In this document: piece after piece, positions 3,237-15,904 of the stretch
Layout: each line of letters begins with the position of its first letter
Numbering within the stretch: position 1 is the stretch's first letter
The notes under the pieces: model-generated
What the model was told of the DNA's origin: nothing
The model's input: the letters and a program-made list of their open reading frames with translations, nothing else
Databases searched by the model: none
Translations under genes and position numbers: made by a program
NCBI RefSeq assembly: GCF_004117075.1
Contig: NZ_CP026721.1
Location: 1,612,001 to 1,676,000 of the forward strand
Length of the DNA stretch: 64,000 nt
Source of the DNA: Fervidobacterium changbaicum
GTDB taxonomy: Bacteria; Thermotogota; Thermotogae; Thermotogales; Fervidobacteriaceae
Reading direction: 5' to 3'

Positions 3237-5480
3237 ATGGGTAAAAGTAGGGTCTTACTTTTGACAGCGGTGGTAGTAACTTTGCTGCTGATTTTCTCTT
3301 GTGTTCCTCAGAATCAAGGTAGCGGAGGTAACGGTGGTGGCGGAGGCGGAACAACAGTGAAGGACATCTACGGTTGGAAACTTGAAATTCTGAACTCAGC
3401 AAACCCGGATACGGGGATAACGATACCGGAAATCTCTGGAAAAGTGATTTACGTATCATCGGCTAACGCGATAATTTCAGATGCAACAACGGCCATTTTT
3501 GTTTACAAAGCAAACTTAACGAATAGCGACATTGGTAAGAAACTCACAATAAAAAATGCTGTTGGGAAGACGTACAGCAAGTCCTTAGAAATAGACCTTA
3601 GCAGTGGGACTAAGGAACTTAGCGAGGATACAAGTGTTATTGAGCCGGCTCTCTTGAACACAGCTCTCGATAAAACAAAAGAAACAAGAGCACTTTGGGA
3701 TATAAGATATGCATATGTTTACGGTGAATTTACGGGTAATGCTGGCGAACTTCCAAATACTTACGAGTTCAAATATCCTGTGGGTGATGAGAAACTTTCG
3801 ATAAGTGTTTACAAGGTAGCCGATGTCGATGCTATATACAAACCAACGACAACTACACCAGCGACACTTGTAGGTTATACAAAATACTACAACGATGTGT
3901 GGGAGTTTGTCGTATTCCCTGATAAAATAATCATAGAGCTTCCTATGGTAACAAATGCCCGCGCCAAATACAATCCGAATTCAAAACTCTTAACACTGAG
4001 TTGGGAGTCAGATGTGACAGATGCAGCATTCAATATTTACATCTCGGATGAATCTGAAACGACACTTGCTACAACAACAACATCGAAGGAAGTTATAATA
4101 CCAGTTAACGAAGCGCCAAAGTCAGTTGGCATTGAAATTGTGAAAGGAACTTCAAAGAGCAAAATTCTGACAATTTCCAAAGAAGAAATCGAAGTTGTGA
4201 TAATAAATCCAGTAACAGGTTTGCTTGCTTCATACGATGACTATAACGGTAAGATGTACGTTAGCTGGTCTTACGATGGTGAAGCTCAGTTCAAAGTCTA
4301 CACAAAGGTTGCAGGCGAGTACGTGCTTAAGGGAACGACAAGTGACAAGAGCTATTCTTTTGACTTAGCACAGGGAGATTACAACACACTTGAAGCTATC
4401 GCTGTTACACCCGTTGTTGACGGCCAAGAAGGACCAAGTGAAGAAGTGAAAAAAGAGAATATCGGATACACATTTGCAGGTGGAGATGGCTCGGAGAGTA
4501 ATCCGTATCTCATTGGTACCGTGAATCAGCTTAAGCTTTTGAATAAGGATGCTTATAGAACGACAGGCAAGTATTTCAAACTCGTTGCCGATATCGATCT
4601 GCAGGGTGCCAACTGGGAACCAATAGGAACGTACAGCTCCAACTTAGCTCAGTCGGCATTTGTCGGTGTCTTCGATGGAAATGGGAAAAAGGTAAGGAAC
4701 TTAACTTACAACGACTCGTCGAAGACGAATGTTGGTTTGTTTGGGTACATTTACAATGCAACAGTGAAGAACTTGATACTCGAAAATGCGAACATAACAG
4801 CTCAAGCTTACGTAGGTGTACTTTCTGGAGGGGCTAAGAATTCGACTGTTGAAAAGGTTGGAGTTAGAAATTCTTCTGTTACCGCAACCAACTCGGGGAA
4901 CTATCCGTACGTTGGCGGATTAATAGGCGATGTTAACGCAGACACAGGTTCTACGAACCCTATGATAGTGCGCCAGTGTTTCGCTGACAACGTTACTGTA
5001 AGTGCACCGAACAATGATAACGCAAGAGCTGGAGGACTTTTCGGAAGGTTCTATGCAAATCAGACAACAAACAGCGTTGTCGAAGACTGTTATGCTACAG
5101 GACAAGTCAACTTCAAATCGACAAGTAGTTCTAACATAGGTGGTCTAATTGGTCTTGTTTCAAGGAACACAAGTGGTTCACCACTTGGTGAAGTTACAAT
5201 TCGCAGATGTTATGCAGCGGTTCGACCAGGCTCGAGTGGGAATAACAATTGGAAAGGATTCATAGGTGGTAGCAGTGTTCCGGCAAGTTCAAGTAGTGGT
5301 AACAACTACTTCGATAAAGATGTAGCTGGAGAAAATTCTGGTTCAGCAAACAGTTCATTGCAGGCAGCCAAAACCACAACTGAAATGAAACAGCAAAGCA
5401 CGTTTGTGGGTTGGGACTTTACAAATATTTGGAGAATTAACGAAGGACAAGATTATCCAAGGCTGAGATGGGAATACTGA
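3237..5480 (+). CDS. Surface lipoprotein with N-terminal OB-like region, Fn3-like region and GLUG-type repeats
   Basis: The start chosen is the ATG at 3237, nine bases after AGGGGG; the ATG at 3231 is also possible. The product is about 747 residues. A lipoprotein signal ends at the lipobox IFSC, followed by a Gly-rich linker (NGGGGGG). Residues about 35-110 resemble an OB-fold (ISGKVIYVSSANAIISDA...), the middle has Fn3-like beta segments (ARAKYNPNSKLLTLSW), and the C-terminal third begins with GGDGSESNPYLIGTVNQLKL and has four GLUG-type repeats (VGLFGYI, VGGLIGDV, AGGLFGRF, IGGLIGLV) predicted to form a right-handed beta-helix. Such domains occur in secreted adhesins and processed surface proteins. 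It is the first of five adjacent genes for exported proteins. The exact role is unknown; surface binding is inferred. Confidence 0.75.
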   Translation: MGKSRVLLLTAVVVTLLLIFSCVPQNQGSGGNGGGGGGTTVKDIYGWKLEILNSANPDTGITIPEISGKVIYVSSANAIISDATTAIFVYKANLTNSDIGKKLTIKNAVGKTYSKSLEIDLSSGTKELSEDTSVIEPALLNTALDKTKETRALWDIRYAYVYGEFTGNAGELPNTYEFKYPVGDEKLSISVYKVADVDAIYKPTTTTPATLVGYTKYYNDVWEFVVFPDKIIIELPMVTNARAKYNPNSKLLTLSWESDVTDAAFNIYISDESETTLATTTTSKEVIIPVNEAPKSVGIEIVKGTSKSKILTISKEEIEVVIINPVTGLLASYDDYNGKMYVSWSYDGEAQFKVYTKVAGEYVLKGTTSDKSYSFDLAQGDYNTLEAIAVTPVVDGQEGPSEEVKKENIGYTFAGGDGSESNPYLIGTVNQLKLLNKDAYRTTGKYFKLVADIDLQGANWEPIGTYSSNLAQSAFVGVFDGNGKKVRNLTYNDSSKTNVGLFGYIYNATVKNLILENANITAQAYVGVLSGGAKNSTVEKVGVRNSSVTATNSGNYPYVGGLIGDVNADTGSTNPMIVRQCFADNVTVSAPNNDNARAGGLFGRFYANQTTNSVVEDCYATGQVNFKSTSSSNIGGLIGLVSRNTSGSPLGEVTIRRCYAAVRPGSSGNNNWKGFIGGSSVPASSSSGNNYFDKDVAGENSGSANSSLQAAKTTTEMKQQSTFVGWDFTNIWRINEGQDYPRLRWEY

Positions 5481-5510
5481 TAATCAATTTTGGGCGAAGT
5501 ATCAAAAATG

Positions 5511-5540
5511 CCCCGGGCAGTTCCTTGCCCGGGGTGTTTA
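5511..5540 (+). terminator. Hairpin after the GLUG lipoprotein gene
   Basis: A perfect 9-bp GC-rich stem (CCCCGGGCA / TGCCCGGGG) with a 6-base loop, followed by only a weak T tract (TGTTTA). Probably a terminator, perhaps a partial one that lets some transcription continue into the next gene. Confidence 0.6.
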
Positions 5541-5578
5541 ACGAAAATCCAGCATGATAATTTTTGGGAGGGATTAGC

Positions 5579-7219
5579 GTGAGAAAGTTTGTTTTTATCT
5601 TGATTTTAGTGTTTGCTACTATTAGTTTTTCCTTCAAACTTGATTTTCAAGTACGAGGTTATCTGACTTATGATCTTAACTCCGGCGCTATAGATAATTT
5701 TCCTATAGCGTACTGGACAATTTCTTTACCAAGCCCGCTTGACTCTTTCGCTATAAAGCTAACTGATTACATGACCTATTCACATCAAACGTTTAATTTG
5801 TTTGGAATGAATTTTATAGTTCCAAGATATTACTTTGTTGATTCAAGGTTTAGACTTGACAACAGCTACATAAATACGTTGTATATAGCGATTGGTCGAA
5901 TGAGGTTATCGCGTAGCCTTACAAATAATTACGACGGTGTTCAAATCGGGGGGTTAAAATACGACACCTACAAAACTTCAGCAACGGAATTGGGTATCGG
6001 TGGTGTTGTTGGTTACGTATCGGGAAAGGTTGGGAACTACTCTTACGAGGTTGGCGGAGCTTACAGCATTGAATTAAATAATTATGCCCTTTACGGTACG
6101 CTTAAGACAGATTTCGGACAATTTGGGGCGTATTATGAAACAAGGTACTATCAACTTTCGCTCAATTATCAAAACACGCAGAACTTGCCTTTCGGTACTT
6201 TGAAGTACTGGGCTGGTGTTGGGTCAGCGACGAATACGATAAATGAACCAAGTTTTCTCGCAGGTGCAACATTAAATTCTGGTCCTATTTTCTTGGCAGG
6301 TCAATTCGCTTGGATTGGTGGAAACAAATACGATGTGAGTTTTGCAACAGGTGAGCCTTCCAACCCCAACCAACCAAGATCATGGAATGTCATGGGCGAG
6401 ATAGGTTACAACCTGCCTAACTTCTATGTGGGATTGTTTGCAAAGTACAACAGCATCTGGGCAGAAAATGGTTGGCTACCACTTTACGGTGTTAAGATAA
6501 CGTCTGGGGACTTTTCACTATCGTTTGCTAACGGTGATTTGTACGTTTCTTCCTCAATGCCCGGAACTCAGTCAGTGCTTCTAAAAGTGACTTATAACTA
6601 TCAAGCGAGTATAGATTTACTTGCTGGTGTGCAAGGTGTCTTATCTCAGTTCGCGCCAAAAGCAGTTTCAACATCCGCTCAAAGGGAACAAACGATAACA
6701 GTTGCTGATCTGTACAAGATGCCTGAAGGTTCGAAGGTTAAAGTCACTGGTACCGTACTTGCACCAGTTGGACTCTTGAGTGGTTCAACAACATACATAC
6801 AGGATAAAACAGGTGCGATAATGTTGTACGGAAGGTCCATTCCTACAACACTCAAGGTTGGAGATGTGGTATCGGTAACTGGTTCGACAAAGGTCTACAA
6901 CGGTATACTTGAAATAGTTGTGGACAGTGTAACCGTGGTTGGAAATGCCAGAGTCGAGCCCGTAGAATTGAGAGAACTTTCAGACAAATACATGTCTAAC
7001 TTAGTCTATGTGATCGGAACTGTTGAAAATGTGGCAAAAGACAATTTTATTGTCAACACAGGCAACTTTAAAGTGAAAGTTTATATAAAAGCTGCTACGG
7101 GCATTAGTTTAGCTAACATATCAGAGGGAACAAAGGTAAAGGTAACTGGTATTTTGACGCTCTTTAAAGGCGAGTACGAAATTCAACCGATTCAGCAGTC
7201 CGACATAGAAGCAATGTAA
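5579..7219 (+). CDS. Exported beta-barrel-like protein fused to a C-terminal double OB-fold domain
   Basis: GTG start at 5579 after GGGAGGG; about 546 residues. An N-terminal signal peptide (VRKFVFILILVFATISFSF) is followed by about 330 residues of alternating aromatic and polar residues typical of outer-membrane (toga) beta-barrels, e.g. GAYYETRYYQLSLNYQ. Residues about 372-546 form two OB folds (TVADLYKMPEGSKVKVTGTV; IQDKTGAIMLYG; LKVGDVVSVTGSTKVYNGIL; then a second set), of the type seen in the N-terminal half of secreted nuclease YhcR. A near copy of this OB pair forms the whole mature protein encoded at 8054. A nuclease gene lies between them. I infer a porin-like or surface protein that binds nucleic acid; neither activity is proven by the sequence. 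Confidence 0.7.
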   Translation: MRKFVFILILVFATISFSFKLDFQVRGYLTYDLNSGAIDNFPIAYWTISLPSPLDSFAIKLTDYMTYSHQTFNLFGMNFIVPRYYFVDSRFRLDNSYINTLYIAIGRMRLSRSLTNNYDGVQIGGLKYDTYKTSATELGIGGVVGYVSGKVGNYSYEVGGAYSIELNNYALYGTLKTDFGQFGAYYETRYYQLSLNYQNTQNLPFGTLKYWAGVGSATNTINEPSFLAGATLNSGPIFLAGQFAWIGGNKYDVSFATGEPSNPNQPRSWNVMGEIGYNLPNFYVGLFAKYNSIWAENGWLPLYGVKITSGDFSLSFANGDLYVSSSMPGTQSVLLKVTYNYQASIDLLAGVQGVLSQFAPKAVSTSAQREQTITVADLYKMPEGSKVKVTGTVLAPVGLLSGSTTYIQDKTGAIMLYGRSIPTTLKVGDVVSVTGSTKVYNGILEIVVDSVTVVGNARVEPVELRELSDKYMSNLVYVIGTVENVAKDNFIVNTGNFKVKVYIKAATGISLANISEGTKVKVTGILTLFKGEYEIQPIQQSDIEAM

Positions 7220-7265
7220 CTGATGCAGCATTTATGAGGTTACTTTATAGAAAGGTGGTTTGCAA

Positions 7266-8036
7266 GTGAGAAAGTTTTATAAAAACTTTTGGATAATCAT
7301 AGCTCTTGTCGTAACACTTTATCTATCATCTTGTGCAACTCAGCAAGAGATACTAAAGAACGTTGAAGTAATCGATGGTGACACAGTCAAAGTCTATGGT
7401 CAGTCATACAGACTAATAGGTATTGACGCACCAGAAATCCATTCTGGTGATAAACCTGCTGGTGAGTACGGAATCGATGCCAAGAACTACCTTATATGGT
7501 TTGCAAACAATTTTGAGCTAACTTATGAACAAAAAGGTACAGATAACTACGGAAGAAAACTGGTTTACCTTTTTGGAATTGATGGAAAGAACAAATACTT
7601 ATACGAAGCTTCGGTTACCGAGCAAGGTTACGCAAGACCTCTTATTTACGAGAGCACAGCTGTACCGATGTACACAAATCAGATAGTCGCTGCATATAAC
7701 AGAGCTTATCAAAATAGGAAAGGCATATTCTCAAAATATGATGAAGCACCAATTATTACGAAGTCAAATCTTTCAAGTTCATACATAGGAAAAATTGTAT
7801 GGCTTGAAATGGATGTTTCCAACGTGAGGTACTCTAATTATACGTACTATATAGAATCTGATTTCGTTCTTGCCAAAGTGAGATATGAAGAATACAAATA
7901 CCTATTCAACGGGTACAATTTGTATGGTTTAAAAGGCAGAAAAGTTAGGTTCTATGGTGAATTGTGGTACGATAACTATGAGAAGAAATACATGATAATG
8001 CTGCGCGCACCATTTGAAATTAGAATCGTTAGCTAG
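7266..8036 (+). CDS. Secreted lipoprotein nuclease, staphylococcal nuclease (thermonuclease) family
   Basis: GTG start at 7266, seven bases after AAAGGTGG; 256 residues. A lipoprotein signal ends at LSSC. The SNase fold follows, with the catalytic residues readable: D37-G-D-T-V, then YRLIGIDAPE (Arg and the Ca-binding Asp/Glu), AKNYL, and the second Arg in DNYGRKLVYLF. The enzyme is expected to cut DNA and RNA outside the cell while anchored by lipid. About 80 C-terminal residues (IGKIVWLEMDVSNV...YGELWYDNYEKKY) look like an extra small beta domain, possibly another OB fold. The neighbours on both sides carry double OB folds and an alkaline phosphatase follows, which supports nucleic-acid scavenging. 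Confidence 0.88.
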   Translation: MRKFYKNFWIIIALVVTLYLSSCATQQEILKNVEVIDGDTVKVYGQSYRLIGIDAPEIHSGDKPAGEYGIDAKNYLIWFANNFELTYEQKGTDNYGRKLVYLFGIDGKNKYLYEASVTEQGYARPLIYESTAVPMYTNQIVAAYNRAYQNRKGIFSKYDEAPIITKSNLSSSYIGKIVWLEMDVSNVRYSNYTYYIESDFVLAKVRYEEYKYLFNGYNLYGLKGRKVRFYGELWYDNYEKKYMIMLRAPFEIRIVS

Positions 8037-8053
8037 AAAGGGAGGTTGGGAGG

Positions 8054-8644
8054 ATGAAAAGGTTGCTTATCGTTTTCTTGGTTATTCTCAGCACGTTTTT
8101 CTTTGCAAATAGTCTTCTTAAGATCGCAGATATTTACAAGACAAAGGAAGGGACAACTGTTGAAGCAACAGGTATAGTTTTGGCACCAGTAGGCGTACTT
8201 GGAACACTGACAACATACATGCAAGATGAAACAGCTGGTATTATGCTCTACGGTAAGGTGCTTCCAGCAGACTTAAAAGTGGGCGACGTTATTAAGGTGG
8301 CTGGGAAGACGAAAGTGTACTACGGAATCTTGGAGATCATCCCTGACAAAGTCGAAATCCTTGGGACGGCTACACCGACTGCAGTTGAGCTCAAGGATGA
8401 TAAATTCGAGAAATATCTATCGAATCTTGTTGTGGTTGTTGGAACCGTGAGTTCTGTTGAAAAGTTCCAGTTCAGAGTGAAGACTGATAAGTTCGAAATA
8501 CTGGTCTACATCAGGAAAGAGGTACCATTCAAAGTCGATACTCTGAAGGTAGGGGACAAGGTAGAAGTTACCGGTATAATGTACCTTTATCAAGGCATGT
8601 ACGAAATTCTGCCAAGAAGACCAGAGGATATAAAGAAGTTCTAA
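8054..8644 (+). CDS. Secreted double OB-fold protein (YhcR OB type)
   Basis: ATG at 8054 directly after GGGAGGTTGGGAGG, 17 bases behind the nuclease gene, so the two are co-transcribed. The signal peptide is MKRLLIVFLVILSTFFFANS; the mature 175 residues are two OB folds (IADIYKTKEGTTVEATGIVL, MQDETAGIMLYG, LKVGDVIKVAGKTKVYYGIL; then VVVVGTVSSVEKF and LKVGDKVEVTGIMYLYQG). They align almost without gaps to the C-terminal domain of the barrel protein encoded at 5579, indicating an internal duplication. OB folds of this kind bind nucleic acid or oligosaccharide; here nucleic acid is favoured by the nuclease neighbour. No catalytic residues are recognisable. Confidence 0.75.
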   Translation: MKRLLIVFLVILSTFFFANSLLKIADIYKTKEGTTVEATGIVLAPVGVLGTLTTYMQDETAGIMLYGKVLPADLKVGDVIKVAGKTKVYYGILEIIPDKVEILGTATPTAVELKDDKFEKYLSNLVVVVGTVSSVEKFQFRVKTDKFEILVYIRKEVPFKVDTLKVGDKVEVTGIMYLYQGMYEILPRRPEDIKKF

Positions 8645-8680
8645 AAGCAGTCGAAATTCAGAAAGTTGTGATGGTTTGAA

Positions 8681-8712
8681 ATCAGCTGGCGACCGCCAGC
8701 TGATTTATATTT
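8681..8712 (+). terminator. Terminator after the secreted OB-fold gene
   Basis: A perfect 10-bp stem (ATCAGCTGGC / GCCAGCTGAT) with a GACC loop followed by TTATATTTCTT. It separates the nuclease/OB operon from the phosphatase gene. Confidence 0.8.
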
Positions 8713-8750
8713 CTTAATGATAGTACACAATCCCTTTTCAGACTTCCTTT

Positions 8751-8756
8751 TATAAT
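8751..8756 (+). promoter_or_regulatory. Probable -10 box for the alkaline phosphatase gene
   Basis: TATAAT lies 48 bases before the phosphatase start. The -35 region (around 8728-8733) does not resemble TTGACA, so an activator may be needed; a phosphate-responsive site could not be identified. Confidence 0.45.
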
Positions 8757-8803
8757 ATAGTCGAAGCGCATCATTTTGTACACACTAAGAGGAGGTGTAG
8801 GGT

Positions 8804-10114
8804 ATGAAGTTGAGAAGCGTATTGGTTTTAGCACTTGTTTTTATCACAGCTTTAGCATTTTCTCTCAACGTGATATTCTTGGTTGGGGATGGTATGAGTT
8901 TTAACCAGCTTCTTTTAGCAAGCATTTTGGAAGGAAGAGTACTGACAACGATGACGCTTCCTTACACCGGCATAACCACTACTTATTCTGCAGATTCTTG
9001 GGTTACCGATTCTGCACCGGCAGGTACAGCTCTTTTCTCTGGTTACAAGACTTTGAATAGGGCGATCGGTATTCTTCCAGACGGTACTTTGGTACCTTCA
9101 ATGTACGAACTTGCGAAGAAATCCGGATACAACATCGGTATTGCTGTAACCTGCAGAGTCACGCATGCAACACCAGCTGCTGTCTACGGTCATGTTGCTA
9201 GCAGGGATGATGAAGTTACCCTTGCAAAGCAGCTTGCTGAATCAGGTGTTGTTGATGTCATCTTCGGTGGCGGTTGGGACATGTTCGTTCCAACTGCGCA
9301 AGGTGGTAGGAGAACAGATGGACTAAACCTTATAGAAATGATGACCAAGAACGGATACGAGTACATCACCACACCAGAACAACTCAACAAAGTCAGTTCC
9401 TCAAAAGTTCTTGGTTTGTTCACAAAAGGGCACTTGGATCCAGTATCAAGCAGACCAGCAAATCAACCAACACTCGATGCCATGACAAAGAAAGCAATCG
9501 AACTTCTCTCCAAAGATGGAAAACCGTTCATGCTCATGGTTGAAGGTTCTCAGATAGACTGGGAATCACATGCTAACGATTTTTACGGTGTGTGGAAGGA
9601 AGTTGTTGAGTTTGACAACGCCGTAAAGGTAGCTCTTGAGTTTGCAGCCAAAGATGGGAACACGCTTGTTGTTGTTCTTGGAGACCATGAAACAGGTGGA
9701 TTGTCACTTTCTAAAGGTGGGTACACAATAAACGTGGAACAGGCAAGGAAAGCAAAAGGCACAACACAGATGTTCCTTGCACAGTATAACATAAGCGAAA
9801 AGGATAAATTCATGGCAGGGCTCAAGGAATGGTACGGAATTTCCGTTACGGATGCTGAATACGAAAACCTCAAAAAGATTCCAGCAAGTGATTTGAGAAG
9901 ACAACTTGCAAGATTTGTGGGCGAAAAATTAGGCTTTGGTTGGACAACATTCGACCACACGGCAGCCCCAGTTCCAGTGTACGCATTTGGTCCTGGTGCA
10001 CATTACTTCACAGGCTTCATGGACAATACCGACGTTCCAAAAATACTTATGACATTAACGAGAATTTCATCAATCACATTCCCTGTCATCAAGGAAACAG
10101 GTAGTGGATACTAA
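8804..10114 (+). CDS. phoA: Secreted alkaline phosphatase (PhoA family)
   Basis: 436 residues, ATG after AGGAGGTGTAGGGT. The signal peptide is MKLRSVLVLALVFITALAFS. Catalytic and metal-binding motifs of the PhoA family are present: D29 in VGDGM, the nucleophile Ser70 in VTDSAPAGTALFSG, the metal ligands in VEGSQIDWESH, VVLGDHETGG and the distal His in FDHTAAPVPVYAFGPGA. It hydrolyses phosphomonoesters in the cell envelope or medium. It follows a lipoprotein nuclease and OB-fold proteins, so it could release phosphate from nucleotides they produce. It has its own promoter-like -10 and ends at a strong terminator. Confidence 0.93.
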   Translation: MKLRSVLVLALVFITALAFSLNVIFLVGDGMSFNQLLLASILEGRVLTTMTLPYTGITTTYSADSWVTDSAPAGTALFSGYKTLNRAIGILPDGTLVPSMYELAKKSGYNIGIAVTCRVTHATPAAVYGHVASRDDEVTLAKQLAESGVVDVIFGGGWDMFVPTAQGGRRTDGLNLIEMMTKNGYEYITTPEQLNKVSSSKVLGLFTKGHLDPVSSRPANQPTLDAMTKKAIELLSKDGKPFMLMVEGSQIDWESHANDFYGVWKEVVEFDNAVKVALEFAAKDGNTLVVVLGDHETGGLSLSKGGYTINVEQARKAKGTTQMFLAQYNISEKDKFMAGLKEWYGISVTDAEYENLKKIPASDLRRQLARFVGEKLGFGWTTFDHTAAPVPVYAFGPGAHYFTGFMDNTDVPKILMTLTRISSITFPVIKETGSGY

Positions 10115-10166: not shown

Positions 10167-10197
10167 CCCCTGCGCGTTTAACGTGCAGGGGCTTTTT
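10167..10197 (+). terminator. Terminator after alkaline phosphatase
   Basis: Stem CCCCTGC / GCAGGGG, extended by an inner CGT/ACG pairing, followed by CTTTTT. Confidence 0.88.
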
Positions 10198-12800: not shown

Positions 12801-13784
12801 ATGAAAAAGCTCTTGTTCTTGGTTTTCGTATTATCAGTAGTTATCGCGTACGCAGGCAACTACGTTAATGCTTATACCACTCTTGAAGAGCCACTTGCAA
12901 AGGCTCTTTTCCAAGAATTCGAAAAGGAAACGGGTATAAAGGTCAACTGGGTAAGATTATCGACTGGTGAAGTACTTGCAAGGCTTGAAGCAGAAAAGAA
13001 CAATCCACAAGCCTCGATATGGGTCGGTGGTGTTGGTGTCTTCCATGTTGAAGCGAAGTTGAAAGGTCTTACAACTCCATACAAAGCTCCATACAGTCAG
13101 TTCATAGACGAGAAATTCAAAGACCCTGACGGCTATTGGATAGGTCTCTACGTTGGACCTCTCGCGTTTGCGACAAACAAGAACAAAGCCAAAGAACTTG
13201 GTATCACACCACCAACAAGCTGGGCAGATTTGATAAAGCCACAGTACAAAGGGCTAATAAGAATGGCAAATCCGAACACTTCAGGTACTGCGTATAACGT
13301 TATTACAACCTTGATTAACCTTTACAACAGAGATGAAAACAAGGTTTTTGACTACTTAAAGAAGCTTGACGCAAACGTAAACATGTATACCAAGTCAGGT
13401 TCAGCACCAGGAAAAGATTGTGCAATTGGTGAGACGACCATAGCGATTGGCTATCTCCACGACCTTGTGAAACTTCAAAAAGAGGGAGCGCCTATCATCA
13501 TCACACTGCCTTCAGAAGGCTCCGGATATGAAATAGCAGCAATGTCACTTATAAAGGGTGGAAAAGAACCTCTCGAAGCAAAAAAACTCTACAACTGGAT
13601 ACTTGGCGACAAAGCGCAGGAAATAATCGCAAGCTGGTACGTGATTCCTCTATCACCTAAGGCACCGAAAAATAAGATGGTTTACAAACTATCAGATGTG
13701 AAGTTAGTCCAGCAAGACCTTCTTTGGGAAGCTCAAAACAGAGAGAGGTTAGTGGACAGATGGAACAAAGAAATTGGAAAATAA
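12801..13784 (+). CDS. ABC transporter substrate-binding protein, iron(III)/AfuA-FbpA type
   Basis: ATG at 12801 after GGGAGGTG; 327 residues. The signal peptide MKKLLFLVFVLSVVIAYAG has no lipobox Cys. It is an extracellular solute-binding family 1 protein: YTTLEEPLAKALFQEFEKET, IWVGGVG, GPLAFATNKNKAKELGITPPTSW, YKGLIRMANPNTSGTAY. These are typical of Fe(III) and 2-aminoethylphosphonate binding proteins, so the ligand could be iron or a phosphonate. The permease and ATPase genes follow immediately with overlap or short spacing, forming a complete importer. Iron is the preferred reading by family, not by a proven ligand site. Confidence 0.8.
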   Translation: MKKLLFLVFVLSVVIAYAGNYVNAYTTLEEPLAKALFQEFEKETGIKVNWVRLSTGEVLARLEAEKNNPQASIWVGGVGVFHVEAKLKGLTTPYKAPYSQFIDEKFKDPDGYWIGLYVGPLAFATNKNKAKELGITPPTSWADLIKPQYKGLIRMANPNTSGTAYNVITTLINLYNRDENKVFDYLKKLDANVNMYTKSGSAPGKDCAIGETTIAIGYLHDLVKLQKEGAPIIITLPSEGSGYEIAAMSLIKGGKEPLEAKKLYNWILGDKAQEIIASWYVIPLSPKAPKNKMVYKLSDVKLVQQDLLWEAQNRERLVDRWNKEIGK

Positions 13785-15904
13785 TTAAATATGTCATTGC
13801 GCTCAGCATTTTGTTTTTTGTGCTCTTTTGGATACGTACAACGATAAGAAACGAGTTCTCCCGCTCCTTGCGGGAGAACTTATTCAGGTTGGCAAACTCA
13901 ATATCGACTATGGAAGTTGACTCTATAAGTGAGAGATTCCCCGACATCCTTGTCTACAAGTCAACATTTGAAGGTGAAGAATACGAGACAAGAAAGGGTT
14001 TGAAGGGACTTGTTAAAACGCTCCCTGACTACAGCTACGGAGAAGAACATGCTTTTTATGAAGAAGTATATCTTTCCTCTAATATCCTAAGAGTTGACAA
14101 CAAAGACTATTTTGTAGTCTTTACACCTATTGTTAAAGACTTTGAAGTAGCCGGGATTCTTATCCAGCTCCATCCAGCAAGTGACTCTTTGAAACTACTC
14201 AGAACAGTAGATGTTATGTTCCTGATATTCTATGGACTTTTCGCAATTGCTTTTGCGATTGCTACGTTCTCGATAGATCCGGTGACAACGTACGCAATAA
14301 TTGTCACTTTTGGAGTCGTTTTGGTATTCATCGTCTACCCGCTTTATGAAGCGGTTAGGCTGACCTTCATGAGAACCGGCACGTTTACTACCAGTGTATG
14401 GAAGACAGTACTTACTGAAAAAGGATATTTGAAAGCGTTTGCTAACAGCGTGTTACTCGGTTCCATAACAGCGACTGTTTCCACGATCGTAGGTTTCCTT
14501 TTTGCATTTTTAGTTACGAGAACAGCAATCAAGGGAAAGAAATTTATCTCCACATTAGCAACGCTGCCGGTCATTTCACCGCCGTTTTCTTTAACCTTGT
14601 CCATAATACTCTTGTTTGGTTCAAATGGACTTATAACCAAGCAACTTCTGAAATTGAATTGGGATATATACGGTTTAGATGGTTTGGTAATTGCGCAGAC
14701 GATGGGAATGTTCCCAATTGCGTATCTTACGATGGTCGGTGTTTTAGAAGCTATAGACAGCACGCTTGAAGAAGCCTCAATGAACCTCGGTGCAAGTAGG
14801 TGGAAGGTCTTTACAACAGTAACGCTACCACTATCACTTCCAGGGCTGCTAAGCTCGTGGCTGCTTGTTTTTACGAATTCGGTGGCCGACTTTGCGAATC
14901 CTCTAATGCTTGGTGGAAAATTCAACGTGCTTTCAGTCACTGCGTACCTCGAAGTAACTGGTATGAATCGCTTAGACAGAGGTGCTGCTCTGTCGTTATT
15001 GCTGTTACTTCCTACGCTCACCGCATTCTACTTGCAAAGGTATGTCGTTAACAGGAAATCGTACGTTACGGTCACAGGTAAACCCAGCGGTAGGATAGTT
15101 GAGATTGTAAGCCCTGGTGCAAGAAGGGTTCTCAGTGTGATAGCGTATGTAATTATAATATTCCTGGTAGGTTTGTATTCAACAATCTTTATGGGTTGTT
15201 TCGTCAAGAACTGGGGAATAGATTATACCTTTACAACTGCAAACATCGTCGAGGCACTCCAGCGCGGTAAAAAAGCGTTAACGGATACAACTTTGCTTGC
15301 GACTGTTGCGATGCCAATTGCAGGTGTATTTTCAATGATTGTTGCGTTTCTCTTTGTTCGTAAAAAGTTCCCAGGCAAAAAACTGTTGCAAGGTCTTGTA
15401 CTATTACCATTTTCAATACCAGGTACGCTTGTGGGTATAAGTTATGTGATAGCGTTCAATAAGCCACCACTAATATTGGTTGGAACGGCTGCGATTATTG
15501 TGATAAATTACGTGATCAGAGAATTGCCCGTAGGGGTAGAAGGCGGAGTTGCTACTCTGAAACAAATAGATCCATCGATAGAAGAAGCAGCTCAAAATCT
15601 GGGAGCTAACCCACAGACAGTGTTCTCGACTATAATTCTTCCGCTCATAAGACCAGCGTTTATTTCAAGCCTTTCTTACACTTTTGTTAGATCTATGACC
15701 GCAGTTAGCGCGGTGGTGTTCTTGATTTCGGCGAAGTGGTATCATATTACTATGCAGATATACAATTTCTCAGAGAATCTAAGATTCGGTCTTGCAAGCG
15801 TACTATCTTCGGTACTTATAATCATAATCCTTGTTGTCTTCGGATTATTGAGGCTTCTCGTTCGTAAGAGCGAATATTTAGAAAAAACGATTGTCCAACA
15901 ATGA
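13760..15904 (+). CDS. ABC transporter permease, two fused permease domains (AfuB/FbpB type)
   Basis: ATG at 13760 chosen; it overlaps the end of the binding-protein gene by 25 bases. 714 residues. It has an N-terminal membrane segment (IIKYVIALSILFFVLFWI), then an extracytoplasmic region of about 110 residues before the second segment, then two permease halves of about six segments each. Both halves carry the EAA loop that contacts the ATPase: EEASMNLGASRWKVFTTVTL and EEAAQNLGANPQTVFSTIIL. Fused double permeases are usual for the FbpB group. The extracytoplasmic insert after the first helix is unusual. Stop and the next start are 19 bases apart. Confidence 0.85.
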   Translation: MEQRNWKIIKYVIALSILFFVLFWIRTTIRNEFSRSLRENLFRLANSISTMEVDSISERFPDILVYKSTFEGEEYETRKGLKGLVKTLPDYSYGEEHAFYEEVYLSSNILRVDNKDYFVVFTPIVKDFEVAGILIQLHPASDSLKLLRTVDVMFLIFYGLFAIAFAIATFSIDPVTTYAIIVTFGVVLVFIVYPLYEAVRLTFMRTGTFTTSVWKTVLTEKGYLKAFANSVLLGSITATVSTIVGFLFAFLVTRTAIKGKKFISTLATLPVISPPFSLTLSIILLFGSNGLITKQLLKLNWDIYGLDGLVIAQTMGMFPIAYLTMVGVLEAIDSTLEEASMNLGASRWKVFTTVTLPLSLPGLLSSWLLVFTNSVADFANPLMLGGKFNVLSVTAYLEVTGMNRLDRGAALSLLLLLPTLTAFYLQRYVVNRKSYVTVTGKPSGRIVEIVSPGARRVLSVIAYVIIIFLVGLYSTIFMGCFVKNWGIDYTFTTANIVEALQRGKKALTDTTLLATVAMPIAGVFSMIVAFLFVRKKFPGKKLLQGLVLLPFSIPGTLVGISYVIAFNKPPLILVGTAAIIVINYVIRELPVGVEGGVATLKQIDPSIEEAAQNLGANPQTVFSTIILPLIRPAFISSLSYTFVRSMTAVSAVVFLISAKWYHITMQIYNFSENLRFGLASVLSSVLIIIILVVFGLLRLLVRKSEYLEKTIVQQ

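Follow-up and report, generated by a model that had tools for sequence, protein, structure and literature searches.

A conserved gene core of an OB-fold lipoprotein, a barrel, and an SNase in Thermotogota, with a predicted role in the use of extracellular nucleic acids

Gene content and transcription units of the locus

The window, the whole 64,000-nucleotide stretch of the Fervidobacterium changbaicum genome that was analyzed, contains a locus of five genes for exported proteins. A preliminary description had placed these genes side by side, and reading of the ORFs located all five on the plus strand in the order stated. Gene 1 (3237–5480) encodes a lipoprotein with an N-terminal double OB domain, an Fn3-like middle region, and a GLUG/M26_N-like C-terminus, gene 2 (5579–7219) encodes a putative outer-membrane barrel with a C-terminal double OB domain, and gene 3 (7266–8036) encodes an SNase lipoprotein with a C-terminal OB domain; these three are the components of the core described below. 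They are followed by gene 4 (8054–8644), which encodes a free exported double-OB protein, and by gene 5 (8804–10114), which encodes the alkaline phosphatase PhoA (302 bits against PF00245, above the cut-off of 24.4). A GC-rich hairpin lies 3' of gene 1 (5511–5534; flagged on the minus strand, with a weak T tail on the plus strand), and terminator-like hairpins lie on the plus strand 3' of gene 4 (8679–8706) and 3' of phoA (10167–10191). Because of these hairpins, the locus likely comprises three transcription units, namely gene 1, genes 2–4, and phoA. The domain assignments are the same with the slightly shifted start positions (3234, 5591, and 7260) that were used in part of the analysis.

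The idea of a single five-gene unit had to be given up, as a hairpin separates gene 4 from phoA, phoA adjoins the core in only 4 of the 33 genomes of the order that have phoA (all from Fervidobacterium: G000, G012, G013, and G015), and gene 4 is confined to a few Fervidobacteriaceae. A five-gene operon was rejected on account of the hairpins and of the non-adjacent position of phoA in the other 29 of these 33 genomes.

The region 5' of the locus (33–2643) codes for a B12-binding aminomutase subunit with an OAM dimerisation domain and then for a member of the aldehyde dehydrogenase family, a conserved gene pair that also precedes the block in G012, G013, and G015. Further downstream, a gene for a solute-binding protein is followed by a 726-aa ORF (13724–15904) whose product resembles an ABC permease in which both permease halves are joined in a single chain. 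A transposase-like ORF, judged by its first residues only, is located on the opposite strand just 5' of the lipoprotein gene in G013 (L077:3147-4088).

Domain architecture of the exported proteins

The lipobox of gene 1 is FSC|VPQ, and its N-terminus is a double OB domain that groups with the double OB domains of genes 2 and 4 (hhalign 99.5%, E 4e-22). The first ~230 residues also correspond to a short lipoprotein that is encoded on its own in Thermosipho and others. The Fn3-like stretches in the middle of the protein were recognized by eye, and the GLUG/M26_N-like matches at the C-terminus are weak, falling under the Pfam cut-offs. The C-terminus of the SNase is likewise an OB domain, grouping with the second OB of the pair (hhalign 96.5%, E 7e-10), while unrelated domain pairs used as hhalign controls all stayed at ≤2%. 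From these profile–profile matches of the gene 1 N-domain and the SNase C-terminus, a single OB family is judged to be common to all core proteins. The double OB domains first ascribed to genes 2 and 4 were found again, but the preliminary description had missed the one at the N-terminus of gene 1 and the OB domain at the C-terminus of the SNase.

Gene 4 offers the best structural view of this OB family. The protein has a signal peptide and no lipobox, scores 29 bits against PF01336 (above the cut-off of 27), and is 49% identical to the OB tail of gene 2, of which it is probably a copy. Its AlphaFold2 model (pLDDT 92.4) consists of two five-stranded OB folds, and the best Foldseek matches are HIN-200 domains and SSBs, with TM-scores of only 0.3–0.4. 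HIN-200 domains are tandem OB folds, several of which have been solved with dsDNA. Alignments of single-domain structures reached Z ~12.5 to AspRS, RPA, CST, and HIN domains. The same level was reached with YgiW, which has no established role in nucleic-acid binding. The modeled double OB domain therefore resembles nucleic-acid-binding OB folds, and binding itself is predicted. The net charge of the OB domains is near-neutral or acidic, with the exception of the SNase OB (pI 9.2), and for this reason nucleic-acid binding by the family is kept here as a prediction.

Gene 4 scores 24.9 bits against DUF5689 (PF18942), under the cut-off of 28.6, and by this comparison appears to be a distant relative of DUF5689 and not a member, whereas other relatives lie above the cut-off (34.2 bits for a relative of the core lipoprotein in L127 and 73.4 bits for a protein in L140). 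The match of gene 4 to the ExeM/NucH family NF033681 is weak (18.9 bits against a cut-off of 300, E 5.6e-4) and covers the OB region only, while other OB relatives in Thermotogota match NF033681 at 4.5e-18 (L140). Elsewhere, members of the OB family occur with PLD-like domains (L142 and L143), a metallophosphatase (L147), and PHP plus DUF4350/GIFT domains (L140), and these domain partners appear to lean towards phosphoesters without settling specificity. The protein in L142 (1923–3992), from another family of the phylum, is exported and combines two PLD-like domains (NucT-like) with C-terminal OB domains.

Gene 2 begins with a GTG start codon after the motif gggaggg and encodes a signal peptide, a barrel, and the C-terminal double OB domain, which scores 28 bits against PF01336 (cut-off 27). 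The structural model of the barrel is weak (pLDDT 63.6). The solved barrels nearest to it are OprD/Occ porins (Foldseek E ~2e-6 to 1e-5, ~7–12% identity), and chitoporin barrels are also among the nearest folds. A search of solved structures with a barrel–OB profile gave no barrel match and only a weak match to RPA (E 0.89), and a pattern-based scan with the barrel beyond the phylum returned Thermotogota matches only. The modeled barrel appears to resemble OprD-type porins, which are its nearest solved folds, but differs from them by the added C-terminal double OB domain. In known outer-membrane proteins, the termini of the barrel face the periplasm, as in OmpA, where the soluble domain lies inside. 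The OB pair at the C-terminus of gene 2 is thus predicted to be periplasmic, and a receiving role is therefore predicted for this tail.

The SNase encoded by gene 3 has the lipobox SSC|ATQ and scores 43.7 bits against PF00565 (cut-off 21). The catalytic residues D41, R51, D56, E59, and R99 are invariant in an alignment of 16 SNase relatives, so that the enzyme is catalytically intact as far as its active-site residues indicate, and nuclease activity is predicted on that basis. A further, degenerate SNase domain occurs inside the gene 1-type lipoprotein of G013 and G015. In G013, alignment with the window enzyme shows that D41, R51, E59, and R99 are replaced or lost, and this domain may therefore be a binding relic. 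In G015, where an additional lipoprotein of 484 aa carries an intact SNase (L076), four lipoproteins in a row take the place of the single one 5' of the barrel (L076:2719-10069); the SNase domain is intact in one of the four and degenerate in another. In addition, GIFT-like lipoproteins adjoin the core in L127 and L128.

Conservation of the lipoprotein–barrel–SNase core

Conservation was assessed by searches of 45 genomes of the order and 103 genomes of the phylum, together with reading of the gene neighborhoods. The genes for the double-OB lipoprotein, the barrel, and the SNase-OB protein adjoin one another in 19 genomes from four families (f1, f8, f9, and f10), a count that includes two genomes with a broken lipoprotein frame. 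The barrel and the SNase are close neighbors in 25 genomes, and the additional six are genomes in which the barrel is truncated, no OB lipoprotein was recognized, or the assignment was made from search coordinates only. The chance that two given genes lie within 1 kb of each other is ~0.002 per genome, by a simple estimate for genomes that are in fact related. The fusion state varies, as the barrel is fused to the OB pair in f1, f9, and f11 and the two are separate genes in f8 and f10. Since the linkage extends over four families that differ in gene order and in whether the barrel and the OB pair are fused, a single inherited accident is unlikely to lie behind it. The conserved core consists of the double-OB lipoprotein, the barrel, and the SNase-OB protein, whereas phoA and gene 4 are lineage additions. 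Of the five-gene block proposed at first, these three genes are conserved, and well beyond Thermotogales, while phoA and gene 4 are not part of what is conserved.

The arrangement is looser in some lineages. In f11, the lipoprotein and the barrel–OB gene are followed by deoC after 48 bp (L095 and L130), and the SNase is located apart from this pair in one exported protein of 708 aa (L131:4400-6526) that combines SNase, double OB, and DUF4350/GIFT-like domains. The SNase stands alone in some genera (g27, g34, and g14). In G022, G023, and G025, the reading frames of the lipoprotein and SNase genes are interrupted by in-frame stops or frameshifts. Phase variation of these genes was considered and set aside, as homopolymer runs are absent or short, with the exception of a run of nine A residues close to the 5' end of the gene in G023; decay or sequencing error is as likely as phase variation to explain the broken frames.

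Phosphatases and other nucleotide genes occur near the core in several lineages. SNases leave 3'-phosphates, which makes PhoA and CpdB-type 3'-nucleotidases fitting partners, and CpdB/YfkN-type nucleotidases are found close to the core in L121 and 3' of it in L128. On the other hand, nearly all genomes of the phylum have deoC, 5'-nucleotidase, and ComEC (ComEC in 98 of 103 genomes), so the presence of these genes was dropped as either support or contrast, and the closeness of nucleotidases or deoC to the core is taken as a hint only. In L095, the one deoC located 48 bp 3' of the lipoprotein–barrel pair is a weak hint of nucleic-acid use. Separately, a second type of SNase gene lies ~120 bp after phoA in G014 (L057:655-2790), where the main core is decayed.

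Proposed function and comparison with known systems

The core, with its lineage additions, may form a module for using extracellular DNA or RNA as a nutrient, with both binding and nuclease activity predicted, and we consider this reading rather probable. The nucleic-acid role suggested earlier for the locus remains the best reading, given the intact SNase residues, the nucleic-acid-type OB folds, and the conserved core, although it no longer applies to a five-gene unit. In the proposed mechanism, the double-OB lipoprotein (gene 1) would hold nucleic acid at the cell surface, and the SNase-OB lipoprotein would cut the captured strand into oligonucleotides and 3'-phosphorylated nucleotides. The OprD-like barrel (gene 2) would then pass these products through the outer membrane, where its periplasmic double OB domain, with an OmpA-like topology, would receive them; the free OB protein of gene 4 would add a soluble copy. 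As an optional last step, PhoA, or a CpdB-type 3'-nucleotidase in other lineages, would remove phosphate, and the nucleosides would be imported. In a more specific form, the lipoprotein, the OB-tailed barrel, and the nuclease would make up one complex, a dedicated outer-membrane importer that needs no pilus to bring DNA or oligonucleotides into the periplasm and that would be a novel type of transporter; this form is possible but rather doubtful.

Alternatively, the lipoprotein and the barrel could be a DNA uptake machine for genetic transformation, through which longer DNA, nicked by the SNase, enters the periplasm. A DUF5689-type surface protein and an adjacent barrel are essential for transformation in Riemerella (PMC8459023), and the relative of the core lipoprotein in L127 lies above the DUF5689 cut-off. 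The wide distribution of ComEC would also fit, but genomes that lack the core, including the presumably Thermotoga-like g13, have ComEC just as often, so that canonical competence does not require the core. Moreover, a potent surface nuclease counteracts transformation and an OprD-type barrel is narrow for duplex DNA, which makes this explanation unlikely.

A role in the uptake of glycans or mixed polymers is quite improbable, although the OprD/Occ porins and chitoporins among the nearest folds of the barrel are consistent with it. In this reading, the OB domains would bind oligosaccharides, the barrel would serve as a porin for sugars, and the SNase would do no more than clear clogging DNA. 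The OB family is not confined to nucleases: in L084, a genome we take to be Thermosipho, a 638-aa lipoprotein of this family adjoins the core, and a barrel with three CBM48-type modules lies close by. The region 3' of the core (L084:1762-7527) contains an OB lipoprotein, a small lipoprotein, a barrel, and a 631-aa protein with three CBM48-type modules, and is likely a glycan-binding surface cluster. In view of this lipoprotein, sugar binding by the OB domains, which the preliminary description had named as a refuting outcome, keeps some probability. A similar OB lipoprotein set is located apart from the SNase in G087 (L145), presumably Marinitoga. Nevertheless, it is the SNase that constantly accompanies the barrel, CBM genes are neighbors only in some lineages, and the nearest OB folds are nucleic-acid binders. 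The least probable alternative is surface defense or biofilm control, i.e., a module that destroys DNA in the toga space, such as phage genomes or matrix DNA, and does not serve feeding. The nuclease is indeed anchored to the cell, and DNA of matrices or traps is a target of other extracellular nucleases (PMC6085458), but a porin as the constant partner fits import, and the nearby phosphatases fit nutrition.

Several known systems share parts with this scavenging module. YhcR unites OB, SNase, and phosphatase in one surface nuclease. It resembles the module in its OB folds, SNase domain, phosphatase activity, and anchoring at the cell surface, but it is a single cell-wall polypeptide of a Gram-positive organism and has no outer-membrane barrel, whereas in the window OB, SNase, and phosphatase are encoded by separate genes and the phosphatase is optional. 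In Bacillus subtilis, YhcR together with NucA/NucB reclaims DNA phosphate (PMC11458576), and by analogy the module would at most work like YhcR. In Shewanella ExeM, a two-OB region is needed for nuclease activity, and the ExeM/NucH proteins resemble the module in having two YhcR-like OB folds that serve a nuclease (PMC6085458). They differ in their catalytic domain, which is an EEP nuclease and not an SNase, and in having no barrel partner, and gene 4 scores under the family cut-off.

The Riemerella DUF5689 protein and its neighboring barrel (RA0C_RS04920/04915), essential for natural transformation and proposed to act in DNA binding and import (PMC8459023), appear by analogy to be the closest earlier example of a barrel with an OB-type surface protein next to it. 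The likeness lies in the DUF5689 label and the adjacency alone; the Riemerella pair is essential for transformation, has no reported SNase, and includes a barrel of a different type, with a carboxypeptidase-regulatory-like domain.

The literature search found no description of such a system in Thermotogota or of extracellular DNA use in the phylum, and the fusion of a barrel with OB domains, as well as the gene set, appear to be undescribed. The earlier view that no system of this composition had been described thus applies to the barrel carrying OB domains, which looks new, but not to the individual parts, which are known from YhcR and ExeM. Taken as a whole, the system is a variant of extracellular nuclease scavenging plus an outer-membrane component for which no description was found.

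To our knowledge, little is known of outer-membrane routes for nucleic acids besides pilus secretins. If the proposed function is true, the core would provide a phylum-wide candidate with few parts, in which the topology of the OB-tailed porin gives a clear prediction. It would also provide a function for the DUF5689-like extracellular double-OB family, which is also linked to DNA uptake in Riemerella.
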